From: Pseudomonadota bacterium
Lineage (GTDB): Bacteria; Pseudomonadota; Alphaproteobacteria; Rhodospirillales; Magnetospirillaceae
Assembly: GCA_021847015.1 (NCBI GenBank)
Contig: JAJZVW010000016.1
Span: forward strand, 1-64,000
Direction of reading: 5' to 3'
DNA: 64,000 bases
Shown here: in pieces, positions 3,972 to 7,078 of the stretch
Layout of the letters: the number at the start of each line of letters is the position of its first letter
Numbering within the stretch: the first letter of the stretch is position 1
Notes under the pieces: model-generated
What the model was told of the DNA's origin: nothing
The model's input: only the letters and a program-made list of their open reading frames with translations
The model's database searches: none
Made by a program: the position numbers and the translations under genes

Positions 3972-5420
3972 CTATTGCTTCCAGAAGGTCGGCACGAACA
4001 GGACGAGCAGCGGAAAGATTTCCAGGCGGCCGAAGATCATCCCGGCGGCCAGCAGCCATTTGGCCGCATCGGGGAGCGCCGCCAAATTGCTGCCGGGACC
4101 GACCGCCGCCCCCAAGCCTACGCCGAGATTGGCGATGGCGCCGACGGCGCCCGAAATGGCGCTGATGAAATCGAGGCCGACCAGCCCCAGGCCCATGGCC
4201 AGCGCCGCGAACGCCATCGCGAAGACGAACAGGAACCCCATCACCGATTCGGGGATGTCGTCGGCGATGGGCCGGCGGTTGAAACTGGCGATCAGGATCG
4301 CATGGGGGCGCAGCAGACGGCGCATCTGCACCAGCGCTTCCGTCAGCAGGAGCTGGAGGCGGAAGACCTTGATCCCGCCCGTGGTCGAGCCGGCGCACCC
4401 GCCGAGAAAGGCGAGAAAGAGCAGGACCGCCGCGGGGATGCCCGTCCAGCCGCCGTAATCGATCGTCGTGAACCCGGTCCCCGTCATCACCGACGCCACG
4501 GTGAAGGTGCCGTAGCGCAGGGCCTCGCCGGCCGTGAAATGACGGCTGACGGCCAGCCAAAGGGAAACGGCCAAGGCGCCGGCCAACATCACCCCCAGAT
4601 ACCAGCGCACCTGCGCATCGCGGAACAAGGCCCCCACGTTCCCGCGCACGGCGCGGAAAAAGAGCAGAAAAGGCAACCCGCCCAGAACCATGCCGGCAGT
4701 GACGATCGCGTCGATGGCCGCGCTCCGGTAATGGCCGACGGAGGAATCCCAGGTGGAAAAGCCCCCCGTGGAAATGGTCGCCATGGCGTGAATCCAGGCG
4801 TCGAAGCCGGTCATCCCCGCCAGCCACAACAACAGCCCAAGCACCGCCGTGATCGCCGCGTAGACACCGATCAGGGTGCTGCCGATGCGGGCCGCCCTGG
4901 GCGCCATCTTTTCCACCGGCGAGAGCATTTCGATACGGAAGATCTGCATGCCGCCGATCCGCAGCGCCGGCAGGATCGCGGTCGCCATCGCCAGGGTGCC
5001 GACGCCCCCCAGCCATTGCAGGACACCTCGCCACAGCAACAGGCCGGGAGGCAGGCGTTCGAGCGGCGCCAGCATGGTGGCGCTGGTGGCGGTCACGCCG
5101 CAGGTGGCCTCGAAAAAGGCGTCGGCCGCCGGCAAATGGGCGTCGCCGAAAGCGAACGGAAGCGCGGCGAAGACGCACGGCATCAGCCAGCCCAGGGCGA
5201 TGGCCAGGTAGGCCTGCCGCACCGTCAAGTCCGCCCAGCGGGACCGCATGCCGAGCACGAAGGCCAGTCCGACGAACACGGTGAGGCCCGCCGACAGGAC
5301 GAACACCCTCCACTCGCCGAATCCGGCCACCGCATCGGCCACGGCGGGCGCCCCCATACTGGCGGCCAGCACCACCAGCACCCAGCCGACAACCTGAAGG
5401 ACGGGACGGAAATCGACCAT
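3972..5420 (-). CDS. trkH: TrkH-family cation uptake subunit (copy 1, atypical filter)
   Basis: 482 aa polytopic inner-membrane protein of the SKT family with four membrane-pore-membrane repeats, ending in the typical RLEIFPLLVLF segment. Pore loops are visible as CGVTATSATM (P1), ISTGGFST (P2), MTGTGFTT (P3) and AIANLGVGLG (P4). Known TrkH proteins carry glycine at the key filter position of each loop (TTxGAT in P1). Here that position is Ser113 (codon 5082-5084, AGC), while the adjacent paralogue keeps Gly117 in a gap-free alignment. It lies three bases downstream of copy 2, so the two are co-transcribed and may form a heterodimer. The regulatory subunit TrkA is not in this window. Ion selectivity cannot be stated from sequence alone. 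Confidence 0.88.
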   Translation of the reverse strand: MVDFRPVLQVVGWVLVVLAASMGAPAVADAVAGFGEWRVFVLSAGLTVFVGLAFVLGMRSRWADLTVRQAYLAIALGWLMPCVFAALPFAFGDAHLPAADAFFEATCGVTATSATMLAPLERLPPGLLLWRGVLQWLGGVGTLAMATAILPALRIGGMQIFRIEMLSPVEKMAPRAARIGSTLIGVYAAITAVLGLLLWLAGMTGFDAWIHAMATISTGGFSTWDSSVGHYRSAAIDAIVTAGMVLGGLPFLLFFRAVRGNVGALFRDAQVRWYLGVMLAGALAVSLWLAVSRHFTAGEALRYGTFTVASVMTGTGFTTIDYGGWTGIPAAVLLFLAFLGGCAGSTTGGIKVFRLQLLLTEALVQMRRLLRPHAILIASFNRRPIADDIPESVMGFLFVFAMAFAALAMGLGLVGLDFISAISGAVGAIANLGVGLGAAVGPGSNLAALPDAAKWLLAAGMIFGRLEIFPLLVLFVPTFWKQ

Positions 5421-5423
5421 CGC

Positions 5424-6881
5424 CTATTCCCGCCAGAACGTCTTGGTGAACAGGACCAGCACCGTGAACACCTCGAGGCGGCCGACCAGCATCTCGAAGG
5501 CCAGGACCCATTTGGCGGCGTCGGGCAGCCTTCGGTAACCGGAGCCTCCCCCGGTCAGGTCACCCACACCGGGACCGCCATTGCCGAGCGCCGAGGCCGA
5601 TCCCGAAAGAGCCGTCACCAGATCCACCCCCGTCATGGTCAGCAGGACGACGTGAACGGCGAAGATGACGATATAGAGAATCACGAAGGCCAGCACCGAA
5701 TCGACGACCGGGTCGGTGACGCGGCGGCGGTTGAAGTCGATGACGAAGACCCCGTGCGGGTGGAGGAGGCGCTTCACCTGCACCTTGGCCATCTGGAACA
5801 GGACTTGCCAGCGGAAGATCTTGATCGCGCCCGATGTCGATCCGGTGCAGCCGCCGACGAAGGCGAGAAGAAAGAACGCCACATGGGCGAAGCTGCCCCA
5901 CCGGGTGACGTCGCCGGTGACGAAACCCGTGGTGGTGACGACGGAAACCACGCCGAAGGCCGCTTCGCGCAGGCTGTCGCCCAGCGACCAATCGCTGGAC
6001 GCCCAGCGCCAGACACCAAGAAGCACGGCGAAGAACGCCAACAGGCCGAGGTAGGTGCGGAACTGGCTGTCCTCGAGAAGAACCGTGCGGCGCCGGCTCC
6101 AGACGGTGACGAACAGGGGAAACGGCGAACCGCCCAGCACCATGGACGCGACCGCCACCCACCGCGCGCCCGAGCCCCAATGCCCCAACGATTCGTCCGA
6201 GGTGGAAAATCCGCCTGTGGACAAGGCGGACATGGCGTGGCACAGGGCGTCGAACCGCCCCATGCCGGCCGCCCAGAACGCCACCGCCGACAGGCCGGTC
6301 AGGAGCGCGTAGACGGCCACCACCGACATCGCCACCTGGGAAACGCGGGGGCCGATCTTTTCCGTCTTGTCGGAGCTTTCCATCTTAAAGAGCTGCATGC
6401 CGCCGATGCGCAGCAGCGGCAGGATGGCCACGGCCATGACGATGATGCCCAGGCCCCCCAGCCAGTTCAGCAATGCCCGCCACAGCAGGATGCCTTTGGG
6501 AGCCGCATCCAGGCCGACGATCACGGTGGCACCCGAGGTGGTAAGACCGCTCATGGCCTCGAACACGCTGTCGGTGAAGGACATGTCCAAGACCGAAAAG
6601 GCGAACGGCAGAGCGGCGCACAAGGCGCCCAGGGCCCAGGCGGAAACGGTCAGAAGGAAGGCGCTGCGGCTTTCCAGCCGGAAACGGCCGCCGGGACGGC
6701 TGCCGAGGATGAGCGTTCCGCCGAGGAACCCGGTGGCCGATGCGCCGGCGAGGAACACTTCCCAATCCAGATTCTCGGACCACGCGTCCACCGCCGCGGG
6801 GATGCCCATCGCCGCGGCGAGAATCAGCAGCAGGAAGCCATTGATGAACAGGACCGGCCGGAGATCGAGCACGTTAGTCAT
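5424..6881 (-). CDS. trkH: TrkH-family potassium uptake subunit (copy 2, canonical filter)
   Basis: 485 aa inner-membrane potassium channel-like subunit of the Trk system, working with the cytoplasmic NAD-binding TrkA. All four filter loops look canonical: LTTSGATV, LSTGGFST, TTTGFVTG and ALGNGGPG. The C-terminus RLEVFTVLVLF is the family signature. It is the first gene of the two-gene trkH unit; its promoter must lie in the gap that carries the two long inverted repeats at 6898-7016. Start MTNVLDLRPV matches the N-terminus of copy 1 (MVDFRPVLQV). Confidence 0.9.
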   Translation of the reverse strand: MTNVLDLRPVLFINGFLLLILAAAMGIPAAVDAWSENLDWEVFLAGASATGFLGGTLILGSRPGGRFRLESRSAFLLTVSAWALGALCAALPFAFSVLDMSFTDSVFEAMSGLTTSGATVIVGLDAAPKGILLWRALLNWLGGLGIIVMAVAILPLLRIGGMQLFKMESSDKTEKIGPRVSQVAMSVVAVYALLTGLSAVAFWAAGMGRFDALCHAMSALSTGGFSTSDESLGHWGSGARWVAVASMVLGGSPFPLFVTVWSRRRTVLLEDSQFRTYLGLLAFFAVLLGVWRWASSDWSLGDSLREAAFGVVSVVTTTGFVTGDVTRWGSFAHVAFFLLAFVGGCTGSTSGAIKIFRWQVLFQMAKVQVKRLLHPHGVFVIDFNRRRVTDPVVDSVLAFVILYIVIFAVHVVLLTMTGVDLVTALSGSASALGNGGPGVGDLTGGGSGYRRLPDAAKWVLAFEMLVGRLEVFTVLVLFTKTFWRE

Positions 6882-6897
6882 CCGCTAGTGGTCCGAT

Positions 6898-6935
6898 CCC
6901 GACAAAAGGTTCATGAGCTTGAACCTTTTGTCGGG
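6898..6935. repeat. Perfect 16-bp inverted repeat upstream of trkH
   Basis: Arms CCCGACAAAAGGTTCA (6898-6913) and TGAACCTTTTGTCGGG (6920-6935) are exact reverse complements around a 6-base loop. It begins 17 bases before the trkH start codon, so on the minus strand it would form a stem in the leader RNA next to the ribosome-binding region, or act as a palindromic operator. Confidence 0.75.
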
Positions 6936-6960
6936 TGAATCGGCCCACAAAATCAATGAA

Positions 6961-7016
6961 TTGTGCACCGACACATTCGGAGGGTCGGTGCACCTTCCGA
7001 ATGTGTCGGTGCACAA
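6961..7016. repeat. Perfect 21-bp inverted repeat with a third half-site in the loop
   Basis: Arms at 6961-6981 and 6996-7016 are exact reverse complements; the 14-base loop contains a further GTCGGTGCAC copy (6984-6993) identical to part of the right arm (7005-7014). The element therefore holds three copies of one 10-mer, two direct and one inverted. It lies between the end of the aldolase operon (7079, minus strand) and the trkH promoter region. It could be a terminator, an operator with repeated sites, or a small mobile palindrome. Confidence 0.75.
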
Positions 7017-7078
7017 GGTGCAAGACCTATGTCCCGGTTCCGCCGGCCTGTCCAGGGGGAATCCATCGCATCGCCCCG

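Follow-up and report, generated by a model that had tools for sequence, protein, structure and literature searches.

Here we describe a conserved tandem pair of TrkH genes, one member of which is still under selection although a filter glycine, invariant elsewhere, has been lost from it repeatedly, a conclusion that sequence comparison across relatives makes solid. The pattern suggests that one twin of the pair has a loosened ion filter and that its partner keeps a strict one. It is more general than the single genome in which it was noticed, and a sodium reading of it is possible, as one among several.

A tandem TrkH pair with unequal filters

The window analyzed is a 64,000-nucleotide stretch of bacterial DNA, to which all positions refer, and it carries the two genes on its minus strand with the following features.

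3972..5420, minus strand: TrkH copy 1 (type A paralogue), 482 aa, intact open reading frame, filter S113-G220-G316-G433
5082..5084, minus strand: Ser113 codon AGC, first filter-glycine position of copy 1
5421..5423, minus strand: 3-bp spacer from the copy 2 stop to the copy 1 start; relatives have the same order and a short spacer
5424..6881, minus strand: TrkH copy 2 (type B paralogue), 485 aa, intact open reading frame, filter G117-G224-G319-G436

Both copies, which share 43% identity, match the Pfam family TrkH (PF02386; copy 1 at 171.5 bits, cut-off 27), and they are the only matches to it in the whole genome. Copy 1 aligns over its full length with Vibrio parahaemolyticus TrkH (VpTrkH; phmmer E 4e-83), and its AlphaFold2 model (mean pLDDT 86, pTM 0.89) has Vibrio TrkH as best PDB match with a TM-score of 0.90, compared with about 0.67 for KtrB and 0.50–0.56 for plant HKT. 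Its closest relatives lie outside the HKT subfamily: its best matches are bacterial TrkH proteins and it sits in the type A TrkH clade. The gate-loop motif GGCxGS...K is present in both proteins (FLGGCAGSTTGGIKV in copy 1, FVGGCTGSTSGAIKI in copy 2), with residues 343–348 of the copy 1 gate loop modeled at low confidence. The conserved filter glycine is found in all four loops of copy 2 and in three of the four loops of copy 1, and because only three are kept, copy 1 is best described as a variant-filter homologue of TrkH, its status as a K+-selective TrkH being unproven.

Two further features of the locus deserve mention. Both copies have an Asp five residues past the third filter glycine (Asp321 in copy 1, Asp324 in copy 2), corresponding in place to Asp327 of Escherichia coli TrkG, a residue near loop 3 that has been linked to Na+ activation (PMC9898762); we take this as a lead only. 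A 135-bp intergenic element at 6888-7022, REP- or MITE-like and containing two perfect inverted repeats (19-bp arms at 6963-6981/6996-7014 and 15-bp arms at 6899-6913/6920-6934), stops 6 bases short of the copy 2 start codon, and about 20 long copies of it occur elsewhere in the genome at 80–97% identity.

The pair is old and its arrangement is fixed

TrkH was found in 52 of the 55 genomes of the window's family (magnetotactic-type bacteria, relatives of Magnetospirillum), and in all 52 both copies are adjacent on the same strand with copy 2 upstream. The spacer measures 3–26 bp in 49 of the 50 family genomes in which both copies are near full length; the 86-bp spacer of the exception, G133, stems from a truncated alignment of the copy 1 start, and copy 1 of G154 is cut short by the contig end. 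The pair is present in named relatives, among them Magnetospirillum, Paramagnetospirillum, Phaeospirillum and Telmatospirillum. The rest of the order mostly has one good TrkH match per genome, and where there is more than one (e.g. G021, G082, G093) the sampled type A and type B copies are non-adjacent.

On the tree, copy 1 groups with the order-wide type A proteins and is the orthologue of the sole TrkH in many other members of the order, and copy 2 groups with type B. This placement in two clades argues that the copies are an ancient paralogue pair; the pair is operon-linked and characteristic of one family. A recent tandem duplication is ruled out by the 43% identity and the age of the two clades. 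Separately, two sequences (L052 40-1484, from G178, and L142 2540-3984, from Magnetospirillum fulvum MGU-K5) show copy 2 broken at an identical point into two reading frames; they may be a single genome present in both collections, or the frameshift may be real, with an intact, Gly-bearing copy 1 next to it.

The window's genome encodes one TrkA, on contig C58 at a locus separate from the trkH pair, flanked by ntrX/ntrY-like response-regulator and sensor-kinase genes and an hflX-like GTPase gene (named by eye from their translations). A single close TrkA homologue per genome was likewise found in 51 of the 52 genomes that have one, and copies 1 and 2 appear to share one TrkA. Because the two copies are invariably paired, in fixed order, with this single close TrkA, a complex containing both is plausible.

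Loss of the first filter glycine is confined to copy 1

In an alignment of 163 TrkH sequences that includes both copies and Vibrio TrkH, Ser113 of copy 1 (codon 5084-5082, AGC) lies opposite Gly117 of copy 2 and Gly113 of Vibrio TrkH, exactly where a preliminary description of this DNA had placed it, and Gly fills the remaining three filter positions of both copies (220/224, 316/319, 433/436), as that description also had it for copy 1. Misalignment is ruled out, the alignment being gap-free around loop 1 with the flanking FEA and T110 kept; so is a sequencing error or pseudogene, given the intact open reading frame, the low dN/dS among orthologues and the presence of Ser in the relative G165 as well.

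Of the 52 copy 1 orthologues, 35 have Gly at position 113 and 17 do not (six Ser, six Ala, five Asn), whereas all 52 copy 2 orthologues have Gly at the first filter position. Loss of this glycine was seen in none of the 43 other type A and none of the 14 other type B proteins from other families of the same order, nor in any of 70 TrkH/KtrB-like proteins sampled across the phylum; in total it is invariant in the 179 TrkH/KtrB-like sequences checked other than copy 1. The preliminary description had noted that a common Ser at this position would count against its reading; in the sequences compared Ser is not common there, and among the TrkH sampled it occurs in copy 1 only.

Parsimony on a tree built without the loop columns gives nine changes between Gly and non-Gly in copy 1 (12 changes in all) and zero elsewhere. 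With tree lengths of 15.1 for copy 1 and 34.1 for all others, the chance at equal rates that all nine fall in copy 1 is about (0.307)^9, or ~2e-5 by our own arithmetic, a figure that, like the trees and counts, rests on the sampled genomes and on family sequences that are related to one another. The changes extend to close relatives, as in the pair G102 (Gly) and G183 (Ser), and G102 may have regained its glycine. G180 is another genome with Ser in copy 1. Since most copy 1 orthologues have Gly and G102 perhaps returned to it, an altered filter is not essential to the role of the pair.

The replacements are narrow in kind. Ser, Ala and Asn are the only residues seen in place of Gly113, and none of the replacements is charged or bulky. 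The Ser codon is AGC in all six genomes concerned, one transition from GGC, and single-base steps from GGC also reach Asp, Val, Arg and Cys. If transitions are given twice the weight, 3/8 of first steps lead to Ser or Ala, so that about seven independent origins would all fall there with a chance of ~0.001, on a rough calculation that assumes no constraint. On this pattern, position 113 of copy 1 is loosened but not free, and the restriction to small, neutral replacements suggests that the filter still works and favors a conducting pore over a dead one.

Relaxation is limited to two pore loops

Copy 1 has dN/dS values of 0.08–0.34 in the 25 closest genome pairs, overall slightly above those of copy 2, and is therefore under purifying selection. 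As reference we took 50 columns at least 99% conserved outside copy 1 and called a column relaxed when at least three copy 1 proteins deviate. By this measure copy 1 shows relaxation in 8 of 12 filter columns, compared with 5 of 38 others (Fisher p 0.0007, a value that ignores relatedness). Mean entropy in loops 1 and 2 is about twice as high in copy 1 as in copy 2. The two copies have similar entropy in loops 3 and 4, at the gate and the C-terminus, and in helices D3M2b and D4M1, which make up the dimer interface of VpTrkH (PMC6987127). Copy 1 is thus full length, with gate, dimer helices and C-terminus retained and relaxation limited to pore loops 1 and 2. Its other filter positions are Gly in 51/51 (220), 50/51 (316) and 50/51 (433) orthologues, the exceptions being Ser at 316 in G150 and Asp at 433 in G151, both long-branch members.

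Scattered changes at or near other filter glycines were also seen. In G165, whose copy 1 has Ser113, copy 2 (L033 2957-4402) has Ala at the fourth filter position and is the sole copy 2 to have lost a filter Gly, and a type B TrkH from another family (L102, in G086) has Ala for the third filter Gly. Copy 1 of seven g4 genomes (L011, L012, L013, L045, L048, L050, L055) reads STSGAST, not STGGFST, in loop 2; in this subclade the residue before the second filter Gly and the Phe after it are changed, mostly alongside a non-Gly residue at 113. It is not a second lost filter glycine, as the filter position falls on the second Gly of the GG (VpTrkH Gly222), which these proteins keep.

A proposed strict pore beside a looser one

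We give an even chance to an account in which the pair is operon-linked and copy 1 remains conducting, with a filter that is weaker and probably more permeable to Na+, beside a strict copy 2. The upstream copy 2 would retain the invariant four-glycine filter, and the downstream copy 1 would continue to fold, gate and presumably conduct, its first pore loop freed from the constraint of a strict K+ filter, with Ser as the outcome here and Ala or Asn as that in relatives. The copy 1 pore would most likely have lower K+ affinity and selectivity and be more permeable to Na+, the direction of the shift being a prediction, and would work beside copy 2 under one common TrkA. The two might perhaps form a heterodimer of one strict and one loose pore.

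Work on homologues bears on this expectation. The first filter position divides plant HKTs into class I (SGGG) and class II (GGGG), with Ser associated with Na+ uniport and Gly with K+/Na+ symport, although exceptions exist (PMC7918770). Of the two E. coli proteins, both of which use TrkA, TrkG imports Na+ and depends on it for K+ uptake, and TrkH does neither (PMC9898762). VpTrkH, whose filter has all four glycines, shows a less than 2-fold preference for K+ over Na+ in patch clamp (PMC6987127). Together these data make it likely that Ser113 would lower K+ affinity and let more Na+ pass, without being all-or-none in effect; as even four-glycine VpTrkH is barely K+-selective, the functional step in copy 1 may be small. 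For the same reason, the earlier suggestion that the tandem pair combines a potassium-type with a more sodium-permeable subunit is too clean. Its alternative, a mixed pore, is unlikely: each TrkH protomer contains all four pore repeats (PMC6987127), so a heterodimer would have two separate, different pores.

Loss of constraint also invites an explanation by redundancy. The window's genome has three Kup matches and one KdpA, and copy 1 may have lost constraint since other K+ uptake systems cover the need. The family genomes that have the TrkH pair and no Kup match (G153, G158, G160, G161, G176) all have Gly113 in copy 1; they are few and related to one another.

The persistence of everything beyond pore loops 1 and 2 while the filter relaxes could also mean that copy 1 is a non- or weakly conducting helper that dimerizes with copy 2 and engages TrkA, its filter decaying without selection for ion passage. 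Copy 1 is never found without copy 2 in the family, and swapping four-residue filters between TrkG and TrkH of E. coli put an end to K+ uptake (PMC9898762), so changed loops can be plainly inactive. A dead pore would, however, be expected to decay in all four loops, and in copy 1 three filter glycines are nearly invariant, loops 3 and 4 are roughly on a par with those of copy 2 in conservation and the replacements at 113 are all small and neutral. We consider a helper unlikely, though worth keeping in view. Slightly less probable is the stronger form of the strict-and-loose proposal, an obligate, TrkA-gated heterodimer of a strict K+ pore and a loose Na+-permeable pore that would have arisen several times through loss of a single Gly.

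The preliminary description likened Ser113 to the Gly-to-Ser change of plant HKTs. The likeness holds in that the change is real, lies at the position of the SGGG/GGGG divide, is confined to this paralogue among TrkH sampled and sits in a protein maintained by selection. Taken further, it would turn copy 1 into a uniporter selective for Na+, next to a copy 2 selective for K+, and residue and position are indeed identical to class I HKT (PMC7918770), with one transition sufficing in all six Ser genomes. However, Ala and Asn are each about as frequent as Ser in the orthologues, which points to recurrent loosening, not convergence on the HKT serine; Ser does not define the pair, as 35 of 52 copy 1 orthologues still have Gly; and HKT and TrkH are distant relatives, the copy 1 model being far closer to TrkH. 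An HKT-type sodium switch is thus improbable. Least probable of all is a functionally silent Ser113 in an ordinary K+ channel whose loop 1 tolerates small residues: position 113 does accept only such residues and the whole of copy 1 is under purifying selection, but Gly is invariant in every TrkH/KtrB-like sequence checked outside copy 1, and changing one KtrB filter glycine to Ala reportedly lowered cation affinity about 100-fold. Some room for silence comes from the plant HKT exceptions, where the Ser/Gly class does not predict selectivity (PMC7918770).

The strict-and-loose pair, if borne out as an obligate heterodimer, would be a natural asymmetric two-pore ion channel.

Comparison with known systems

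To our knowledge, the filter glycines of TrkH and KtrB have been regarded as invariant, and plant HKT has so far supplied the clean natural test of loop 1. The tandem genes add a set from bacteria, about 50 pairs of orthologues, with repeated change at this residue in one paralogue and none in its operon partner. Gly, Ser, Ala and Asn versions in close species allow a direct test of the residue's role in native proteins, and the pairs also allow a test of TrkH as a two-pore heterodimer.

The closest structural counterpart is VpTrkH (PDB 3pjz, 4j9u, 6v4j-l), with which copy 1 shares full-length homology (E about 1e-83), the four-repeat fold, the intramembrane gate loop and a TrkA homologue in the genome; it differs in having Gly113 where copy 1 has Ser, and here two paralogues lie in one operon. 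Plant class I HKTs such as AtHKT1;1 share Ser at the first filter position and Gly at the other three. They are remote from copy 1 (TM 0.50 and 13% identity), and the TrkH-type intramembrane gate loop is reported absent from HKT (PMC7918770). In E. coli, too, two TrkH-type proteins share one TrkA, and the Na+-permeable TrkG provides a precedent for functional division between them (PMC9898762). The E. coli trkG is, however, phage-borne and not in tandem with trkH, and Na+ activation of TrkG was linked by its authors to Asp327, not to a lost filter glycine (PMC9898762).
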